Shown: positions 3,013-12,133 of the stretch, one piece after another
Position numbering within the stretch: position 1 is the stretch's first letter
How the letters are laid out: each line of letters opens with the position of its first letter
Assembly: GCF_013372225.1 (NCBI RefSeq)
Contig: NZ_CP053832.1
Coordinates: forward strand, 496,001 to 560,000
From: Campylobacter ureolyticus
GTDB taxonomy: Bacteria; Campylobacterota; Campylobacteria; Campylobacterales; Campylobacteraceae
DNA length: 64,000 nt
Direction of reading: 5' to 3'
Notes under the pieces: model-generated
What the model was told of the DNA's origin: nothing
The model's input: the letters and a program-made list of their open reading frames with translations, nothing else
Databases searched by the model: none
Program-made: the position numbers and the translations under genes

Positions 3013-3689
3013 ATGTTAAAAATAGAAAGTAAAATATATTCAAAAAATCTTAAAATTTATAAAGGCTTGTCAAAATTAATTCAAGGTTTTTTTATGCAAA
3101 TCTGCCAATAGCTGAGCACATTGGCTACAGGCATAGTAGTGGCAAAATATTTAAAAAAACAAATTTTTGTTTTAGTTTGTATAATGGTTTTTTGACAATT
3201 AAATTTAGTGCTTTGGAAAAAGAACTTGAAGAAATAGTAGCCGTATCGCTACTAAAAAATGACTTAAGACTCGGAGAAATTCGTCTTGTTGATACCTCTG
3301 TAAATTTAAGTGATCACAACACAAATAAAACTGAGATAAATTTTAATGGATATGTAGTTTGTAATGTAAAAAGCCTCTTAAATAAAAAAATCTATCTTGA
3401 ACCGCAAGACTCCAGACATCTTGAGATAATGAAAAACAACCTACTTCAAAAATACGAAACTTTTTATGGTAAAAAATACAACGAAAAGTGTGAGATAACT
3501 CTACTTTCACAAGACTTTGAAAATTACAAAAAATTCTACTATGGAAATAATGTAAATTATATGAAAGCTTGGCTTGCAACTTGGAATATAAAAGCCAGTA
3601 ACGAGCTTATAAATTTAGCACTATCTACGGGTCTTGGAGCAGGAGTAATGAGTTATGGATGTGGATTTGTAGAAGAAATTAAAGCCTAG
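3013..3689 (+). pseudogene. cas6: Cas6 pre-crRNA endoribonuclease, reading frame broken by -1 shift at a T7 tract
   Basis: Cas6 cuts the CRISPR transcript within each repeat, leaving the 8-nt handle. The gene starts at ATG 3013 behind AAAGGGG and reads 27 codons (MLKIESKIY...LIQGFF), then hits TAG at 3109. The -1 frame continues from the T7 tract (3087-3093) with YANLPIAEHIGYRHSSGKIF and runs to 3689, giving a normal ~225-residue Cas6. The C-terminal glycine-rich segment GLGAGVMSYGCGFVEE is typical of the family. The tract in frame is T TTT TTT, a canonical -1 slippery heptamer, and a 6-bp hairpin (3104-3125) follows. So the shift may be programmed or phase-variable rather than a loss; a one-base sequencing error is equally possible. 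Confidence 0.85.
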
Positions 3690-3697
3690 TTTTTTAT

Positions 3698-3767
3698 AAA
3701 ATAATAAAATTTAGCAAGGCTAACAACATATTATAAATTTCAAAATCTACAAGATTTCCTTGCTAAA
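3698..3767 (-). ncRNA. crRNA-like small RNA (CreR/CreA-type candidate)
   Basis: This lies on the minus strand, opposite to the cas genes. After a consensus promoter the transcript would begin near 3767. It contains a degenerate CRISPR repeat: its last 20 nt match the array repeat at 15 positions. The stem is ATCT-TGT-AGAT (array: ATCC-TAT-GGAT), a compensatory change, and extends to AAATCT/AGATTT (3752-3757 with 3743-3748). The handle TTTGAAAT (3744-3737) follows, then a pseudo-spacer from 3736. A 10-bp outer stem (3758-3767 with 3710-3719) followed by a U-rich stretch looks like a terminator. Known family: CreA/CreR RNAs of type I-B loci, which guide Cascade to repress promoters. No toxin gene is evident, so regulation of cas (CreR) fits better than a CreTA toxin-antitoxin. 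No expression evidence is available. Confidence 0.7.
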
Positions 3768-3773
3768 AGAGTG

Positions 3774-3802
3774 ATTATAATAAAAATATATATGAATGTC
3801 AA
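3774..3802 (-). promoter_or_regulatory. consensus sigma70 promoter for the crRNA-like RNA
   Basis: On the minus strand TTGACA (3802-3797) and TATAAT (3779-3774) are both perfect and separated by exactly 17 nt. The predicted start is near 3767, at the first base of the outer stem of the crRNA-like RNA. A perfect -35 is exceptional in Campylobacter. Confidence 0.82.
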
Positions 3803-3806
3803 AATA

Positions 3807-3825
3807 TAACTACATATTATAATAA
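3807..3825 (-). promoter_or_regulatory. pseudo-spacer target site (protospacer seed plus flanking TTA) between divergent promoters
   Basis: Read on the minus strand from 3822 to 3807, this site matches the first 16 nt of the pseudo-spacer (3736-3721) at 15 positions. The only mismatch is position 12. The base triplet 5' of the protospacer is TTA (3825-3823), where a PAM would lie. A Cascade bound here would cover the -35 of the minus promoter (3797-3802) and sit within a few bases of the -35 of the cas8b promoter (3829). Matching stops after position 16, which in known CreR systems allows binding without Cas3 cleavage. Function is inferred. Confidence 0.65.
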
Positions 3826-3828
3826 AAT

Positions 3829-3857
3829 TTGACAAAAAATTTATTTTTATTTATAAT
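3829..3857 (+). promoter_or_regulatory. consensus sigma70 promoter for cas8b-cas1
   Basis: TTGACA (3829-3834), a 17-nt spacer and TATAAT (3852-3857) give a perfect sigma70 promoter. The start point would be near 3864, some 20 nt before the cas8b ATG at 3883. It therefore excludes the longer frame that opens with TTG at 3829, whose first codons overlap the promoter. Confidence 0.85.
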
Positions 3858-3882: not shown

Positions 3883-5265
3883 ATGAGTTTGGTTCAAAAG
3901 CTTCATAATATTGGCAATTTAGTAAGCGATGATGATTTTATAAATTTATTAAAAACTGATTTTGATGCGTCAAGTTATACGGTTTTAAGCCTTAATTTTA
4001 ATATAAACAATCAAGTTCTTGTTAAAAAGCCAACTCTTACAAAAACTTCACTTGATAAACTAGATACGTTTTTTACAAAAGCGATTGGTGGAAGAGGAAG
4101 TGGATACTTCTATCTTTATCCGAATTTCACCTATCAAAAAGAGAGTGATCTTTATAAAAAGTTTAAAAATACAGCTCCAACTTTTGAAAAATCGGTGCTT
4201 GTTTTTGCAAATGAACAAAATCAAAATTTAGCAAAACCTGTTTTTGAATATATAAAAAACTATGAAAAAGATGAGCTTGAACTTAAAGCTTTTGCTAAAA
4301 ACGACTATTTGCTGATATTTACAATAAATGGAAAAACCATAAGAGAGTTAATGCCTGAAATTTTAACAAATTTCATCCAAGATTGTGCTTTTCCTCACTC
4401 TGATATTAAACTGCAAAAAAGTATTGATTTTATAACTAAAAAAGAAGATATTTGCGGATACAATCCTGATGTCAAGTTTTTTACATTTGACAATTATCAT
4501 GATAAATTTAAAGAACAAATTACTACCAAACTTCCACTTTCTCAAAAAAGTGCATCTACGATAAAAAAAGGTTGGATTTATGTTATTAATAATCTTAGAT
4601 TTTATCATAAAGGGCTTGAGTATATCATCATCCCATCGATGATCAAATTTGATAAAAAAGCATATAAAATTATATTAGACGGTTTTAAAAAGGCACAAAA
4701 AACTTATAGCTTAGAAGATAAAGCCTCAAAAGAAGATAGTTTTATAAGAAAACTTCAAAAAGAAGTGGGTGACTTGGAGATGATAAAATCAAGCTATGTT
4801 GATTTGTATTTTACTGATATAAATATAGTAAATTTATCGGTTAAAATTCTTGGAAGTATGGAAAATCTTTTGCCAAGCAAGATAAGAGATGTGGGAGCAA
4901 AGATGATGGAACAAAGGGTTTGTGATTATTATTCCATAGAAAAGAAAAAAGATGGTTTTTTGTGCCTTAGTGATTATTTTTCTGTAGATGAGCTTTTTAC
5001 GCGTTTTAAAAAGATTAAAGGCTTAGAAAACAAAGTCTTGCAAGAAAAAATATATCTTACAAAGCTGCTTTTGGGATATGAAAAGATTGAGTATTCAAAA
5101 CTTTTGGATAAATTTGAGCACTTTAGAGAATTTGATTTTGAAAACAAAAAAAAGTTAAACGATAAAAATATAAAAGAGTGGATTGAATTTAGTGATAATT
5201 TTATTCAAAACGAAGATAGAACTATAAAGTTTTTAGATAATATAAATGCGATAAAAAGGGGTTAA
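3883..5265 (+). CDS. cas8b: Cas8b, large subunit of type I-B Cascade
   Basis: The product (460 aa) resembles the Csh1/TM1802 family, the large subunit that recognises the PAM and helps load Cas3. Visible family features are the glycine-rich GGRGSGYFYLYP segment near residue 70-80 and the conserved central core GWIYVINNLRFYHKGLEY. The start is ATG 3883 with AAAGG at about 3872-3875; an in-frame TTG at 3829 lies inside the promoter and is rejected. The protein is shorter than many Csh1 proteins because the C-terminal helical part is encoded by the next gene, one base downstream. It is the first gene of a tightly packed operon to cas1. No zinc-finger cysteines are evident. Confidence 0.85.
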   Translation: MSLVQKLHNIGNLVSDDDFINLLKTDFDASSYTVLSLNFNINNQVLVKKPTLTKTSLDKLDTFFTKAIGGRGSGYFYLYPNFTYQKESDLYKKFKNTAPTFEKSVLVFANEQNQNLAKPVFEYIKNYEKDELELKAFAKNDYLLIFTINGKTIRELMPEILTNFIQDCAFPHSDIKLQKSIDFITKKEDICGYNPDVKFFTFDNYHDKFKEQITTKLPLSQKSASTIKKGWIYVINNLRFYHKGLEYIIIPSMIKFDKKAYKIILDGFKKAQKTYSLEDKASKEDSFIRKLQKEVGDLEMIKSSYVDLYFTDINIVNLSVKILGSMENLLPSKIRDVGAKMMEQRVCDYYSIEKKKDGFLCLSDYFSVDELFTRFKKIKGLENKVLQEKIYLTKLLLGYEKIEYSKLLDKFEHFREFDFENKKKLNDKNIKEWIEFSDNFIQNEDRTIKFLDNINAIKRG

Positions 5266-5266
5266 A

Positions 5267-5665
5267 ATGGAACTTTTCTCAGAGTATTTTAAAAATCTAA
5301 ATATAGAAGATGATTTTAAATTTGCATATTTAGTAGGAGCTTATTCAAAAGCTATTATTGATAGTTCGTATTATTCTGAAATTTCAAAACAAAATGAAAC
5401 ATTTAAAAAATGGCTCTCAAATAGGCAACTTATAAAATCAAATTTGATTAAAATTTTTAATAAAGCAAATGAATTTGAAAGAAAACTAAAACTTGAAAGT
5501 GTAAGAAACAGCGACCTTTCAGAGCTGATTACTTCAAATTACAATGAAAATGCAAATTTAAGAAATAGCGAAGTATCGTTTTATTTTTTAAGAGGTTTTA
5601 ACGATTACAAAAAATTTAAACAACAATATCCAAGCAAAGGAGTTAATGATGATAGCAAAGCATAG
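5267..5665 (+). CDS. stand-alone small subunit-like protein (probable Cas11b, detached Cas8b C-terminus)
   Basis: A 132-residue, mostly helical protein with no recognised catalytic motif. Its segments FAYLVGAYSKAII near residue 20 and EVSFYFLRGFNDYKKF near residue 103 resemble the C-terminal domain that in many Csh1 (Cas8b) proteins forms the small subunit or is made from an internal start. Here it is a separate gene with its own strong site AAGGGG (5256-5261) five bases before the ATG and one base after the cas8b stop. It overlaps the start of cas7 by about 17-20 nt. I infer that it forms the Cas11 filament of Cascade. Family assignment is by position and these motifs only. Confidence 0.65.
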   Translation: MELFSEYFKNLNIEDDFKFAYLVGAYSKAIIDSSYYSEISKQNETFKKWLSNRQLIKSNLIKIFNKANEFERKLKLESVRNSDLSELITSNYNENANLRNSEVSFYFLRGFNDYKKFKQQYPSKGVNDDSKA

Positions 5666-6515
5666 TGAGTTACTTTTTATCTGGGATGCAAAGATGACAA
5701 ATCCAAACGGCGATATGCTAAATGACAATGCGCCAAGATTTGATGAAACTGATAGGAAGGCTATAGTTAGCGATGTTAGAGTTAAAAGAACAATTAGAGA
5801 TGATTTACAAGATAGAAAAAATAAAACAATTTTTGTAAATAACCCAGAAATTGTTCAGTCTGCAGAAACAAGATTTAATGAGCTTAAAAAATCATCAAAT
5901 TTAAAAGATGATAGAGAAGTGTTTTTAAGCTGTATTGACAATAGGCTTTTTGGCGGAGTTGCACCAAAAAGTAATATCCAAATAATTGGCTCAGTGCAGT
6001 TTTCTTGGGCAAAATCCTTAAACCAAACAGAAACTATTTTAAGTCAAGGAACTGGAGCGTTTGGAAGAGATGGAAGTGATAATAAGACTTTTAGAACCGA
6101 TAATTACTTGCCTTATGCACTTTTTGCAATGTATGGAACTATAAACTCTATAAACGCCAAAAAATCAAATGCAAGCGAAGATGATATAAATGAGATGATT
6201 GATTCTATGTGGAATGGAACAAAACTTTTAAATACAAGAAGTAAAATTGGTCAAAAACCAAGAGCGCTTTTTAGAATAATTTATAATGATGCCTATGTTA
6301 TAGGGCTTCTTGATGAATTAATCAGTATTAAAAATAAAAATTCCGATGATATTAGAAAATTTGACGAATGTGAAATTTGCTTCGATGAGCTTATAAAAGC
6401 AGTAAAAATAGCAGATGAAAAGATAGAAAAAATAGAAATTTACTACGATGAAAGCATAAAAGAAAAGCTTAGTGTTTTTAAAGATTTAGCTAAAGTTGAT
6501 ATGAAAGTTATGTGA
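5649..6515 (+). CDS. cas7: Cas7 (Csh2 family), Cascade backbone subunit
   Basis: Cas7 polymerises along the crRNA spacer. The N-terminus ELLFIWDAKMTNPNGDM is the hallmark of the Csh2/DevR family, followed by DVRVKRTIRDDL and the glycine-rich GTGAFGRDGSDNKTFRTDNY loop. Length is 288 aa, normal for the family. ATG 5649 is preferred over the adjacent ATG 5646 because AAAGGAG (5636-5642) is then 6 nt away. The stop TGA overlaps the ATG of cas5 (TGATG), so translation is probably coupled. The frame is intact. Confidence 0.93.
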   Translation: MIAKHSELLFIWDAKMTNPNGDMLNDNAPRFDETDRKAIVSDVRVKRTIRDDLQDRKNKTIFVNNPEIVQSAETRFNELKKSSNLKDDREVFLSCIDNRLFGGVAPKSNIQIIGSVQFSWAKSLNQTETILSQGTGAFGRDGSDNKTFRTDNYLPYALFAMYGTINSINAKKSNASEDDINEMIDSMWNGTKLLNTRSKIGQKPRALFRIIYNDAYVIGLLDELISIKNKNSDDIRKFDECEICFDELIKAVKIADEKIEKIEIYYDESIKEKLSVFKDLAKVDMKVM

Positions 6516-7254
6516 TGTTTGCTTTTAAAATTTGGAGTAAATTTGGAGCTTTTAAAGACCCGATGACGATTAGTCAAAATATAACTTTAAATTTCCCTCC
6601 AAAAACAGCCGTTGCAGGTATGATGGCTGCGATTTTAGGTGTAGATGAGTATTTAAAAGATGATGGTTTTAATAGCTTTAAATATAGCGTAGTTACAAAC
6701 AGCAACACTTTAAAAAAGAGTTTTTCGCAAAATTACATAAATGACTATACTAAAAAAACAAACTCACATCTTGCTAACTTGCAAATACTAAATTTAAAGC
6801 GATAAAAGATGGCCTAAGAGATACAAAAGCACCACAAAAACCAATAAATAGAGAGCTTTTAATAAATCCAGCTTTTACTATTTTTATAGATGGGTTTAAA
6901 TTTGAAGATGAAATTGTAAAAAGCTTAAAAAGCCGTCTTTTAAAATATAATTTATACATGGGCAATAGCGAGTTTAGTGCAAATTTTAGCTTTTTGCCGC
7001 TTGAAAGTTTTTCAATGAAGAAATTTGATTTGGTAAACTTGGACTCATTTTTAGAGCAAAGCTTGGTTGAAAGTATTGAGTTTGATGAGAATGTGTTTTA
7101 TAAAAACACTCTCATTACGACAAAACTTAACCACAAACGCTCTCCTATAGAATCTATTAATTTAGTCCATTCAAATAGCAAAATAACGGCTAAAAACATA
7201 GAAGCTTATGAGATTTTGGCAAATGATAGGAAGTATTTTTGTAGGTTTGTGTGA
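6515..7254 (+). pseudogene. cas5: Cas5 (Cas5h), Cascade handle-binding subunit, reading frame broken by -1 shift
   Basis: Cas5 caps the 5' handle of the crRNA in Cascade. The first frame starts at ATG 6515 (MFAFKIWSKFGAFKDPMTI, then NFPPKTAVAGMMAAILG, the typical Cas5 N-terminus) and stops at TAA 6803. The -1 frame continues without a gap as KAIKDGLRDTKAPQKPINRE...LINPAFTIFI and ends at 7254; together about 246 aa, a full Cas5. The junction in the first frame is A AAT TTA (6790-6796), a canonical -1 slippery heptamer, but I see no strong hairpin after it. A one-base deletion, a sequencing error or programmed frameshifting would all explain this. Its stop overlaps the ATG of cas3. Confidence 0.85.
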
Positions 7255-9461
7255 TGCTTTATTCTCATCCAAAAAAAGAGTATAAAAACCATATCAAAAA
7301 TCTAGTAGATAGTTTTGATGATAAAGAGTTTGCAAAGTGTGCTTTTTATCATGATTTTGCCAAACAATCAGATAATTTTCAAAAATACATCACACTAAAA
7401 AAGGAAAATTTTAACACCAAAGAAGAATTTGAAAAAGAACGAAATAGACTAAAAACAACGCACTCTTTGGAAAGTGCTTATATATATTTTTTTATGCAAA
7501 ATGATAAAAATATTGATTTTATTATAAATTTATGTGCTATTTTAAAACATCATTCAAATTTAGAAAATTTTGAAAGTATGCTAAACTACCTTACTTGTAT
7601 AGAAAATAATTTAAACTCAGATGAAAATATAAGCAACATCACTTCATCTTTAAAAGTGGCAGATTTAAAAGATTTTTTAGAGATTATACAAAAAGATAAA
7701 ATATACGAATTTGCCGACTTTTTTGATGATATTTTGGACGAAGTAAAAAATTTTTTTAAAATAGAAAATTTCTTTAAATTTAAAGATAGATATTCAAAGT
7801 TGATTTTGGCTGATAAATTTGAAGCTATTTTTGATGAGCCATATAAAGACTTTGATTTTATATCGTCCAAAATTTGTGAAAATATCATCCAAAACATACA
7901 CGCACAAATTTCAAACAAACCACCAAATAACTACAAAAATAGCTCAAGAAAAATTATATTTAAAAATTATGAAACTAACAAAGACAAAGATAAATTTATA
8001 ATAAAAGCTCCAACTGGCATTGGAAAGACATATATTGCACTTGAGCTTGCGCTAAAAATTGCCACACAAAAGCCTAAAAAACGCATAATCACAGCTATTC
8101 CATTTACTTCTATAATAGATCAGACTTTTTTAGAATATGAAAAAGTTATCCCTGAAAATTTAGGTCTTTTAAAATATCATTACCTATCAAAATATACCGA
8201 TGATGAAAAAGAGCAGTTTTCTAAAAAGATATTTTTAGCAGACATTTGGCATGAGCCACTTATCATAACTACTTTTAATCAGCTTTTAAACATCTTTTTT
8301 TCAAACTCAAACAAAGATAACTTAAAACTTCAAACTCTTAAAAATAGCGTTATTATTGTTGATGAAATTCAAAACATATCTAGAGTTTTGCTGCAGGATT
8401 TAGCGTTTGTGTTTAATGAGTTTAGTAAAATTTATAATATAGATTTTATAATTATGTCAGCAACAATGCCCCATCTTAATTTAGAAAATTTCACAATTAT
8501 TTCAGAAAGTGACTTTTACAAGTCGAAACAAAACAGATATAAAATTTCATTTTTTGATGAGATAAAAAATATCAAAGATTTGGTTTGTGTATTAAACTCG
8601 CAAACTAAAAGTACGATTTGTGTTGTAAATACCATAGCAAAAGCTCAAGCTATATATAAAGAACTTAAAAAAGATGAAAATCTCTATCTTCTTACAACCC
8701 ATCAAACGCCAAAGCACAGAATAGAGCTGCTTAAAGAAATATATAAAAAATTAGAAGAACAAAAGCCAGTTAAGCTTATCGCAACGCAGCTTATAGAAGC
8801 TGGAGTTGATCTTGATTTTAGCGTTGGGTTTAGAGAATTTGCTCCATTTACTTCTATAGTGCAGATGGCAGGACGTGTAAATAGAAACGGTATAAAGAGT
8901 AAAATAAGTGAGTGTTTTGTTTTTGATTTTTTGGAGTTTGAAAATGTAGATAAAAAACTTCCATATCATGGTATAGACTTACAAGAGGAGTTTGTAAAAA
9001 ATAGCCTAAAAAATGGCATTTATGAAAATGAGATATTTGAAATTTTAGAGGAGTATTTTAAAAGAGTAAAAGATGAAACAACTCACACTAAAATTAATGA
9101 AAAAATGCGAAAACTTGAATTTACCACAATTTATGGTGATTTTACAGCGAATTTCATGCCAAAACAGCCATGGAAAGTTTCGGTTTTTATAGAGGAAAGA
9201 AAAGATGAGTTTAAAGAGTTTATAGAAAAAAGAGATAATATTTTAAACTCGTATGATGATAAATTTGAAGCTTTGGCAAAGATAAAAGATTTGGAAAAAA
9301 CTCTTTTAGGCCAAACGATAAACATAAATCACAAACTAATCGAAAATTTGCAATTAAAAGAGATATTTGGAAGATATATACTTAATTTTGGTTTTAAAAA
9401 CTATACAAAAGAGTTTGGATTTACAACGGATTTAACAATAAAAGAAGAGGCGTTTTCATGA
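7254..9461 (+). CDS. cas3: Cas3 helicase-nuclease (HD domain fused to SF2 helicase)
   Basis: Cas3 is recruited by target-bound Cascade and degrades the DNA. The 735-residue product starts with an HD nuclease domain (YHDFAKQSDNFQKYI near residue 34, HHSNLENF near 105). The SF2 helicase follows: Walker A APTGIGKTYIAL near 249, a DEIQ box (IVDEIQN near 368), MSATMP near 400, and motif VI QMAGRVNRNG near 540. The start is ATG 7254, which overlaps the cas5 stop, rather than GTG 7251. All key motifs look intact, so if cas5 and cas6 are really dead this gene has not yet decayed. It overlaps cas4 by 4 nt. Confidence 0.95.
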   Translation: MLYSHPKKEYKNHIKNLVDSFDDKEFAKCAFYHDFAKQSDNFQKYITLKKENFNTKEEFEKERNRLKTTHSLESAYIYFFMQNDKNIDFIINLCAILKHHSNLENFESMLNYLTCIENNLNSDENISNITSSLKVADLKDFLEIIQKDKIYEFADFFDDILDEVKNFFKIENFFKFKDRYSKLILADKFEAIFDEPYKDFDFISSKICENIIQNIHAQISNKPPNNYKNSSRKIIFKNYETNKDKDKFIIKAPTGIGKTYIALELALKIATQKPKKRIITAIPFTSIIDQTFLEYEKVIPENLGLLKYHYLSKYTDDEKEQFSKKIFLADIWHEPLIITTFNQLLNIFFSNSNKDNLKLQTLKNSVIIVDEIQNISRVLLQDLAFVFNEFSKIYNIDFIIMSATMPHLNLENFTIISESDFYKSKQNRYKISFFDEIKNIKDLVCVLNSQTKSTICVVNTIAKAQAIYKELKKDENLYLLTTHQTPKHRIELLKEIYKKLEEQKPVKLIATQLIEAGVDLDFSVGFREFAPFTSIVQMAGRVNRNGIKSKISECFVFDFLEFENVDKKLPYHGIDLQEEFVKNSLKNGIYENEIFEILEEYFKRVKDETTHTKINEKMRKLEFTTIYGDFTANFMPKQPWKVSVFIEERKDEFKEFIEKRDNILNSYDDKFEALAKIKDLEKTLLGQTININHKLIENLQLKEIFGRYILNFGFKNYTKEFGFTTDLTIKEEAFS

Positions 9462-9955
9462 GCTTTCCAAAAGAGCAGATCTCAGGCACACTTGTAAATT
9501 ACTATGCAACTTGCAAAAGAGAAGCGTGGCTTTACTCAAGAAAAATTCACGCAAGACAAGATGATGAAAATGTGTTGATTGGCAAATCCTTGTCTGAATT
9601 AAAAGAAAATTTAGATGATTTTCCATACTCAAATCTGCGATTTGACAAAGTTTCAAGGCAAAAAGGACATTATGAAATAACAGAATATAAAAAAACTTTA
9701 AAAAATAAAAATGCTGCAAAAATGCAACTTCTTTTTTATATCTATACTCTTAAAAACGCACTAGGATTAAAAAAGGTTTATGGAAAAGTTGTGAGTTCAA
9801 AAACCGTTATAACTGTAGATGATAGTGATGAAAACTTTGATTTTATGAAACGGATTTTATCTGATATGAGTGAGTTTTTAAGTCTTGATTTGCCACCAAA
9901 AGCTATAAAAACTAAATTTTGTAAAAACTGCGCTTATAATGACTACTGTTTTTAG
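9458..9955 (+). CDS. cas4: Cas4 PD-(D/E)XK exonuclease, adaptation protein
   Basis: Cas4 trims and orients pre-spacers with Cas1-Cas2 so that PAM-correct spacers are inserted. The 165-residue protein has one N-terminal cysteine (YYATCKREAWL near residue 19) and three C-terminal cysteines (FCKNCAYNDYCF), the set that binds a 4Fe-4S cluster. Nuclease motifs are EITEYKK near 71 and QLLFYIYTL near 88. Start ATG 9458 overlaps the cas3 stop by 4 nt; cas2 follows after 8 nt. Confidence 0.93.
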   Translation: MSFPKEQISGTLVNYYATCKREAWLYSRKIHARQDDENVLIGKSLSELKENLDDFPYSNLRFDKVSRQKGHYEITEYKKTLKNKNAAKMQLLFYIYTLKNALGLKKVYGKVVSSKTVITVDDSDENFDFMKRILSDMSEFLSLDLPPKAIKTKFCKNCAYNDYCF

Positions 9956-9963
9956 AGTGTAAA

Positions 9964-10242
9964 ATGTATGTGATTTTGTTTTATGATATATCAAGCAGTG
10001 ATGAAAAAGCAAAAAAGAATGCAAATAAAGTAAGAAAACTTGTCGAAAAATACCTTCCAAGAGTGCAATTTAGCGTATTTGAAGGTGAGATTAGAAAAAG
10101 TGATTTAATAAAACTTAAAGGTATGCTTAAAAAATTAATCTATGATGAGTTTGACTCGGTTGTGATTTATACTTTTGAAAAGCCAAGTTACACAACAAGA
10201 GAGGTTATCGGAATCGATAAAAACGAAACGCTTTTTAGCTAA
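9964..10242 (+). CDS. cas2: Cas2, adaptation complex subunit
   Basis: Cas2 dimerises and bridges two Cas1 dimers in the spacer integrase. The 92-residue product has the ferredoxin-like fold signature MYVILFYDIS with the conserved aspartate at residue 8, then RKLVEKYLPRVQFSVFEGEI. Length is typical. Here it lies upstream of cas1, whereas the usual order in type I loci is cas4-cas1-cas2. Confidence 0.95.
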   Translation: MYVILFYDISSSDEKAKKNANKVRKLVEKYLPRVQFSVFEGEIRKSDLIKLKGMLKKLIYDEFDSVVIYTFEKPSYTTREVIGIDKNETLFS

Positions 10243-10251
10243 GGAGCTAAT

Positions 10252-11250
10252 ATGAAAAACGATAGAACACATTTTATACTAAACAACGGAAAACTCTACC
10301 GAAAAGACAACAACATTTATTTTGATAAATTTGATGAGCAAAACTTAGTTGTAGATACGAAAATTTTACCGATAAATGGAATCGATGAAATTTACATCTT
10401 GGGAAAAGTTGAGCTAGATACTTACACGATGTCATTTTTAAGCACAAACAATATCTTGCTTCATATCTTTAGCGCACACGGTAGTTTTCGTGGAAACTTC
10501 TACCCAAACTCGCCAAATTCCGTAAATAAAAGTGGTTTTGTCTTTTTAAACCAGCTAAGAAGTTTTGATGATGAGATAAAAAGAGTTGCAATCGCTAAAG
10601 AAATTACAAGAGCAAGGATGAAAAATGCAGCAAATAACTGCATAAAAAAAGCGGTCAAATTTGAAACGCAGAAATATTTAAATGCACTTGATAAGGCAAG
10701 CTCTATTGCAGAAATTATGGCGTGCGAGGGAGCTTTTGCAAAAGAGTATTATCAAAAGTGGAATGAAATCATTAAAGATCAAAAAAGCTTTAAATTTATA
10801 ACCCGTTCAAAACGTCCACCAACAGATAAAATTAATGCTTTTATAAGTTATGTAAACACGCGGATTTATAATGTTTGTCTAAGTGAAATTTATAAAACCG
10901 AGCTTGATCCTAGGATTTCGTTCTTACATGAGCCAAACTACCGCTCACTTAGCTTACATCTTGATTTGGCTGAGATTTTTAAGCCACTTATTGGGGATAA
11001 TTTGATTTTTAATATGCTAAATAAAAAAGAAATAACACCAAAAGACTTTAAAACAAATGCTGGACGGATTCGTTTTAGCAACGACGCAGTACAAAAAATA
11101 GAGTTAAATATGATAAAGTCTTTAACCTCTGTTGTAAGTCTTGGCAAACAAAACCTTACATATAGGCAAATCATAAGGCGTGAGGCAAACAGGATAAAAA
11201 AGTGTATTTGTGAAAATTATCCTTACGAGGGCTTTGTGGGTGAGATTTAA
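10252..11250 (+). CDS. cas1: Cas1 CRISPR integrase
   Basis: Cas1 catalyses insertion of new spacers at the leader end of the array. The 332-residue protein has the expected catalytic triad: Glu about 159 (ACEGAFAKEYY), His about 226 (SFLHEPNYRSLSLHLDL) and Asp about 238 in the same segment. The ribosome-binding site AAGGAG lies just before ATG 10252, 9 nt after the cas2 stop. The frame is intact, so adaptation may work even if interference is broken. The array leader follows directly. Confidence 0.96.
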   Translation: MKNDRTHFILNNGKLYRKDNNIYFDKFDEQNLVVDTKILPINGIDEIYILGKVELDTYTMSFLSTNNILLHIFSAHGSFRGNFYPNSPNSVNKSGFVFLNQLRSFDDEIKRVAIAKEITRARMKNAANNCIKKAVKFETQKYLNALDKASSIAEIMACEGAFAKEYYQKWNEIIKDQKSFKFITRSKRPPTDKINAFISYVNTRIYNVCLSEIYKTELDPRISFLHEPNYRSLSLHLDLAEIFKPLIGDNLIFNMLNKKEITPKDFKTNAGRIRFSNDAVQKIELNMIKSLTSVVSLGKQNLTYRQIIRREANRIKKCICENYPYEGFVGEI

Positions 11251-11516: not shown

Positions 11517-12133
11517 GTATAAATTTGATCCTATGGATTTTGAAACAAAGAACTAGGATTAAACGACTTGCAAATCGCTGGTATAAATTTGATCCTATGG
11601 ATTTTGAAACTCAATATTTAAAAAGTATTTTATCTCATTATCAAGTCGTATAAATTTGATCCTATGGATTTTGAAACAAATATGATCATTCATATTCAAA
11701 TTTACATAGATTAGGTATAAATTTGATCCTATGGATTTTGAAACGAACAAAAAGGTGGGTTGTTTTCAATAAAATCTCCGTATAAATTTGATCCTATGGA
11801 TTTTGAAACTCTTTGCTAGATGAAAGCTTAGAAGCTTTAGAGAAAGTATAAATTTGATCCTATGGATTTTGAAACTCGCCACTGTCGGTCTTATAAAGAG
11901 CAGCTATACTTGTATAAATTTGATCCTATGGATTTTGAAACCTCAAAAAAGTGATAAAAGAAGTGATGGAATGAAGTATAAAATTGATCCTATGGATTTT
12001 GAAACTAAATTTGGCAAAAGCATACTTTGAGGCAGGATTGTATAAATTTGATCCTATGGATTTTGAAACATGAGTGATAATATGAGTAATTCAAATTCAT
12101 CATGTATAAATTTGATCCTATGGATTTTGAAAT
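11517..12133 (+). CRISPR. type I-B CRISPR array, 10 repeats and 9 spacers
   Basis: The 30-nt repeat begins GTATAAATTTGATCC and ends TATGGATTTTGAAAC. Repeats start at 11517, 11581, 11648, 11715, 11780, 11846, 11912, 11976, 12040 and 12104. Spacers are 34, 37, 37, 35, 36, 36, 34, 34 and 34 nt. Repeat 8 has one substitution (T to A at position 8) and the last ends in T instead of C, so 12104 is the old, leader-distal end. The repeat holds the mini-stem ATCC-TAT-GGAT, leaving the 8-nt handle TTTGAAAC after Cas6 cleavage. Spacer targets cannot be determined without a search; I saw no obvious match inside this window. Confidence 0.99.

Follow-up and report, generated by a model that had tools for sequence, protein, structure and literature searches.

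What controls the cas operon of Campylobacter ureolyticus, and does the short gap between cas6 and cas8b hold the controlling element? The locus, a type I-B system of clustered regularly interspaced short palindromic repeats (CRISPR), lies in a 64-kb stretch (the window) of the 1.82-Mb genome GCF_013372225.1. We examined the gap, from the end of cas6 at 3689 to the start of cas8b at 3883, on both strands, and genome-wide tests were made by pattern search. A first-pass annotation had placed on the minus strand a CreR-like RNA that tunes cas expression. CreR is the cas-regulating RNA of type I-B, I-E and V-A systems, and CreR-guided Cascade holds cas expression down until Cascade is in short supply, occupied or inhibited, as outlined in two reviews (PMC12737573, PMC13131331). 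Our analysis agrees with such an assignment: the minus-strand unit at 3767-3710 is very probably a single-repeat CreR RNA that would act as a Cascade-guided autorepressor of the cas genes, a reading supported by a guide target at the cas8b promoter, a protospacer-adjacent motif (PAM) and covariation across species.

The decisive feature, absent from the first-pass annotation, is the guide at 3736-3721 together with its target. The guide seed TTATAATATGTTGTTA is identical at 15 of 16 positions to TTATAATATGTAGTTA, a segment of the same strand 86 bp away that sits between the RNA gene's own -35 box and the -35 box of a perfect cas8b promoter (Table 1). The lone mismatch is at position 12; positions 6 and 12 of CRISPR RNAs (crRNAs) stay unpaired in Cascade. 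If the protospacer is extended, it runs into the guide gene's own -35 box. The sequence TTATAATATGTNGTTA is present exactly twice in the genome, once as guide and once as target, and TTATTATANTATGT, which combines the PAM with seed positions 1-5 and 7-11, is found once genome-wide, at the target. A tandem duplication as the origin of the guide-target match was rejected, since the match begins exactly after the handle, breaks off close to 16 nt in nearly every species and passes over positions 6 and 12.

The PAM was derived separately, from array spacers of the window genome and its relatives (designated here by G numbers, and their loci by L numbers; G179 spacers were excluded), which were searched in 153 family genomes, with 40 hit flanks inspected. 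Because TTA precedes most well-matched protospacers (for example those of G102 spacers 4, 6, 8, 11, 16 and 17 and G090 spacer 1, counted from 0), 5'-TTA, which is also the trinucleotide beside the target at the cas8b promoter, is most likely the interference PAM. The match of window spacer 1 in G002 is also flanked by TTA.

The remainder of the unit is built as a crRNA-like gene, in which a promoter is followed by a degenerate repeat with a hairpin, an 8-nt handle and the guide, with a 10-bp stem enclosing the unit. The consensus promoter just upstream on the minus strand and the handle in its proper place were correctly described at first pass. The repeat itself calls for more caution. The 15/20 identity noted earlier is present, but 7 other non-array sites in the window likewise reach 15/20, and we discarded repeat similarity as evidence for the unit because on its own it is no better than chance. 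Likewise, the hairpin stem does extend to 6 bp, as had been observed, but the extension consumes the first two bases of the handle. Finally, the 10-bp stem and U-rich tail said to close the unit exist, although the stem encloses the whole unit and not merely its 3' end, because its 5' arm is upstream of the pseudo-repeat; the predicted start of the RNA, at about 3768-3767, is the first base of this stem. The unit matched no Rfam family at E up to 1.

From this arrangement we infer transcription, Cas6 cutting, Cascade loading, repression and relief as follows. The sigma-70 promoter would yield a short RNA whose degenerate repeat Cas6 would recognise and probably cut, leaving the handle UUUGAAAU. 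The guide RNA would load into type I-B Cascade and bind 3822-3807 beside the TTA PAM by seed pairing at positions 1-5, 7-11 and 13-16, a pairing presumably too short to trigger Cas3. Cascade bound in this way would cover the cas8b -35 box on the PAM side and the RNA gene's own -35 box on the other, and because both boxes would be covered, it could repress cas8b and the guide gene alike. Repression would lift, and cas genes would be made, when Cascade is scarce, filled with ordinary crRNAs or blocked by an anti-CRISPR.

Comparison with relatives carries the argument beyond a single locus. Collected Cas8b relatives formed the sample, and the compiled set comprises 20 units and 19 guide-target pairs, the window included. 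The scanner asked for a handle, a 16-nt match (positions 6 and 12 ignored) and TTA, all within 400 bp, and was not supplied with a location; it recovered the window unit and, in further species, units that likewise lie between cas6 and cas8b, and the G004 unit and a decayed, target-less G002 unit were added by eye. Across the 19 pairs, some of which come from close relatives that are not fully independent, positions 1-5, 7, 9-11 and 13 match in every case, positions 8 and 14 in 18, position 15 in 17 and position 16 in 13, as against 10 matches at position 6 and 8 at position 12, two positions that the scanner left unscored yet at which it demanded no mismatch. Beyond position 16 matching is about at background (0.37 at shifted offsets); in nearly every pair the match extends no further than about 16 nt. 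TTA is found at 19/19 targets, a figure to be read with the scanner's requirement for TTA in mind, and also at four units found without that requirement and at G004. In 17/19 the -35 box of the targeted promoter lies 1-4 nt from the PAM, its first base being 4-7 nt past the point where the PAM complement starts.

Guide and target have also changed together. Guide changes between the window and G033, G006 and G036 are matched by target changes in 4/4, 5/5 and 3/3 cases, respectively, and the only uncompensated positions in the groups compared are 8 (G090/G267) and 15 (G371). A chance resemblance in an AT-rich gap might be suspected, given how common 15/20 repeat matches are, but the full signature arose in 2/5700 dinucleotide-shuffled neighbourhoods versus 18/19 real ones, and with TTA at all 19 targets and the compensated changes this explanation is extremely improbable. 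The 19 pairs, with their free positions 6 and 12 and a PAM beside the -35 box, provide direct evidence from evolution that these RNAs are read by Cascade, and CreR-type autorepression would appear to be nearly general among the Campylobacter type I-B loci sampled.

A loss of pseudo-repeat stem or handle beside a retained array repeat had been named as a sign against the proposal; in fact all 20 loci have kept both the hairpin and an end resembling the handle, with differing stem sequences. The stems maintain their own pairing but do not copy the array stem.

The enclosing stem is itself a shared feature. Complementary arms of 7-15 bp enclose the guide unit in 20/20 units, and their sequences are often unrelated, for example CAGACACAA/TTGTGTCTG in G185 and TGTAAAAGAAAATT/AATTTTCTTTTACA in G090. 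In 20/20 units the last base of a -10 box (at most one mismatch) precedes the 5' arm by 2-9 nt, which places the expected transcript start at about that arm; the 3' arm lies downstream of the guide in 20/20, after a guide stretch of 14-24 nt. The window stem folds with z of about -3, and the shortest stems have modest individual p-values (26/200 in G033), the strength of the observation being its recurrence. It could be argued that the 10-bp inverted repeat, which lies just past the cas6 stop codon and has a U-rich tail on the minus strand, terminates or attenuates cas6 transcription, or that it is an inverted repeat with no role as a guide. However, its loop is about 40 nt, the cas6 strand has no following U-run and the tails after the stem are not conserved as U-runs across units, and such an origin would leave the handle, seed match, PAM and covariation unexplained; we rejected the terminator for its unconserved tails and regard this whole class of explanation as highly improbable.

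On reading the units we saw no second degenerate repeat (3' handle) downstream of the guide. Most CreA genes have two degenerate repeats, which give a 5' and a 22-nt 3' handle, and RNAs with two handles are more stable, the one-repeat type using a terminator (PMC8501985). The outer stem may take the place of such a 3' handle. More specifically, and only tentatively, it could functionally replace the second repeat as in a circularly permuted crRNA, with one repeat giving both the 5' handle and a Cas6-bound 3' hairpin: Cas6 would cut 3' of the only hairpin, and the 5' arm and hairpin would remain base-paired with the guide fragment at its 3' end. If this is true, recombination between repeats cannot remove the single-repeat unit, and the free guide is limited to 14-24 nt, which would allow promoter block and not full R-loop formation and Cas3 attack. 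Whatever its function, the combination of one repeat with an enclosing outer stem is a new structural feature that recurs in 20/20 units, and its uniformity suggests that there is a second route from one repeat to a stable crRNA-like RNA.

As expected of CreR, cas8b is under the direct control of the targeted promoter in the window and in most relatives. In six relatives a small toxin-like gene intervenes between the two. G055 and G208 (L028, L102) have related membrane-type peptides of 55 amino acids at this position, and G179, G124 and G218 (L022, L107, L109) have related ones of 45 amino acids; the two families are mutually unrelated, and both are candidate CRISPR-regulated toxins. In the sixth, G185 (L115, about 255-1035), the unit targets the promoter of a 37-amino-acid membrane peptide, followed by a PemK/MazF-family gene (PF02452, E 7.2e-11) upstream of cas8b, in what resembles a CrePA- or CreTA-like module. 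The window unit might then be a CreTA-type antitoxin as well, its guide repressing a toxin gene that makes Cascade addictive and not the cas operon as such, and these six genomes, in which a like guide is directed at the promoter of a gene for a small membrane peptide or a PemK protein ahead of cas8b, speak for that possibility. In the window, however, the targeted -10 box ends at 3857 and cas8b starts at 3883, with no space for another gene, and loss of Cas5 and Cas6 has evidently been survived, so that an antitoxin role is very unlikely here.

The single-repeat CreR assignment also agrees with what is known of related RNAs. A degenerate repeat stands outside the array within the cas locus, the handle TTTGAAAT is followed by the guide TTATAATATGTTGTTA, and complementarity of the seed to a cas promoter with a PAM is partial, not full. 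CreR shares with the window unit the crRNA-like form, the degenerate repeat, the partial cas-promoter complementarity and the lack of a toxin partner; the window unit differs in having one repeat only and an enclosing outer stem, and in occurring across Campylobacter. With the CreA of CreTA it shares a seed of positions 1-5 and 7-11 with free 6 and 12, a PAM beside a promoter element and a degenerate repeat (PMC8501985, PMC9458426). Indeed, mutagenesis of haloarchaeal CreA showed that positions 1-5 and 7-11 are needed and 6 and 12 are free, the very pattern of our 19 pairs (PMC8501985). The target here, in contrast to that of CreA, is cas8b and not a toxin gene, a toxin-like target being confined to the six relatives; no toxin promoter beside the guide gene is targeted in the window, and no second repeat serves as a 3' handle in the manner of two-repeat CreA genes or mini-CRISPRs. 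Likeness to CrePA, a CRISPR-repressed protein toxin (PMC12737573), is seen in the membrane peptide and PemK-family gene of G185 and not in the window. The Francisella type II scaRNA (PMC9458426) similarly uses a degenerate repeat and about 15 nt of complementarity to redirect a Cas effector to repress transcription, with Cas9 and a lipoprotein operon in place of the Cascade and cas operon considered here. We found no earlier report of a Campylobacter CreR in a literature search that was incomplete, and a listing in the original CreR paper or in a 2023 survey of CRISPR-derived regulatory RNAs is possible; as far as could be checked, a CreR-type autorepressor is new for this genus.

Several observations weigh against the CreR reading. 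In this isolate cas6 (3013-3689) and cas5 (6512-7254) are each split by a frameshift. The minimum-energy fold of the naked window RNA retains the outer stem but lacks the repeat hairpin, the repeat being paired there with a portion of the guide. In addition, the related I-B loci of G007 and G102, as well as several more distant ones, have no unit, which implies that a type I-B locus can do without it; the sole relative from a genome-contig scan, C. concisus UNSWCS, lacks it.

Given these two frameshifts, this isolate may lack Cascade and Cas6, and its circuit may be idle; intact copies of both genes are present in relatives. Spacer 8 (window 12006-12039) moreover matches its own chromosome at 34/34 positions at L059 (G000:C1:1696230-1696263), and the self-match together with the frameshifts suggests that immunity may be off. 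That chromosomal match is inside a TPR-like open reading frame beside dnaG-, rnhA- and rnc-like genes, where the flank is TAC, not the TTA PAM. It is thus conceivable, if doubtful, that the unit is a decayed relic, a once-working CreR now idle in a strain with broken cas6 and cas5, which would qualify our reading for this strain and not contradict the identity of the unit. Besides the frameshifts and the tolerated self-match, a precedent can be found in G002 (L116), where cas6 and cas8b are broken, the guide unit is kept and the target is lost, and which from this state of its genes is a decaying system. On the other hand, promoter, handle, seed, target and PAM have each remained intact in the window, so any decay should be recent at most, and the frameshifts may reflect errors of sequencing or differ from one isolate to another.

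If the window unit is a CreR RNA, as we consider very probable, its relatives form a group suited to the study of how CRISPR autoregulation and addiction interconvert, because the same site has plain autorepression or a toxin-like target depending on the species. Since CreR is said to respond to anti-CRISPR proteins, it may also explain how immunity is adjusted during phage attack.

Table 1. Positions of the guide-RNA unit, its target and the surrounding CRISPR-cas genes in the window.
Feature	Position	Strand	Remarks
cas8b operon promoter, -10 box TATAAT	3852..3857	+	perfect consensus
cas8b operon promoter, -35 box TTGACA	3829..3834	+	3 nt beyond PAM; 17-nt spacer
PAM 5'-TTA adjoining target	3823..3825	-	PAM plus seed unique in genome; TTA separately derived from array spacers
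Target (protospacer) TTATAATATGTAGTTA, between two divergent promoters	3807..3822	-	15/16 match to guide
Guide-RNA gene, -35 box TTGACA	3797..3802	-	perfect consensus; 17-nt spacer to -10
Guide-RNA gene, -10 box TATAAT	3774..3779	-	perfect consensus
Outer stem, 5' arm TTTAGCAAGG	3758..3767	-	pairs with 3' arm CCTTGCTAAA, 10 bp; fold z -2.8 to -3.3
Pseudo-repeat AATCTTGTAGATTTTGAAAT	3756-3737	-	15/20 identity to 3' part of array repeat GTATAAATTTGATCCTATGGATTTTGAAAC
Degenerate-repeat hairpin ATCT-TGT-AGAT, putatively Cas6-type	3745..3755	-	array stem ATCC-TAT-GGAT
8-nt crRNA-type 5' handle TTTGAAAT	3737..3744	-	array handle TTTGAAAC
Guide (pseudo-spacer), 17 nt, reaching outer stem	3720..3736	-	seed TTATAATATGTTGTTA at 3736-3721, directly after handle
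Outer stem, 3' arm CCTTGCTAAA, then U-rich tail	3710..3719	-	complementarity to 5' arm
cas6	3013..3689	+	TIGR01877; frameshift after about codon 27
cas8b (Csh1/TM1802 family), first gene of targeted operon	3883..5265	+	PF09484, E 2.8e-10
Remaining type I-B operon: small-subunit-like open reading frame, cas7 (Csh2), cas5 (frameshifted), cas3, cas4, cas2, cas1	5267..11250	+	
CRISPR array, 10 repeats and 9 spacers	11517..12133	+	repeat GTATAAATTTGATCCTATGGATTTTGAAAC

Two further elements of these loci deserve mention. Directly after cas8b, at 5267-5665, lies a separate open reading frame of 132 amino acids, and because its G102 counterpart matches the C-terminal part of longer Cas8b proteins, its sequence suggests a stand-alone Cas11b-like small subunit. 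In G216, a repeat-like element (17/20) at L025:935-964 ends directly at the start codon of cas6, its handle lying between the ribosome-binding site and the ATG. We rejected it as a further guide unit because it has no guide and abuts the start codon, and it possibly serves Cas6 in the control of its own mRNA.
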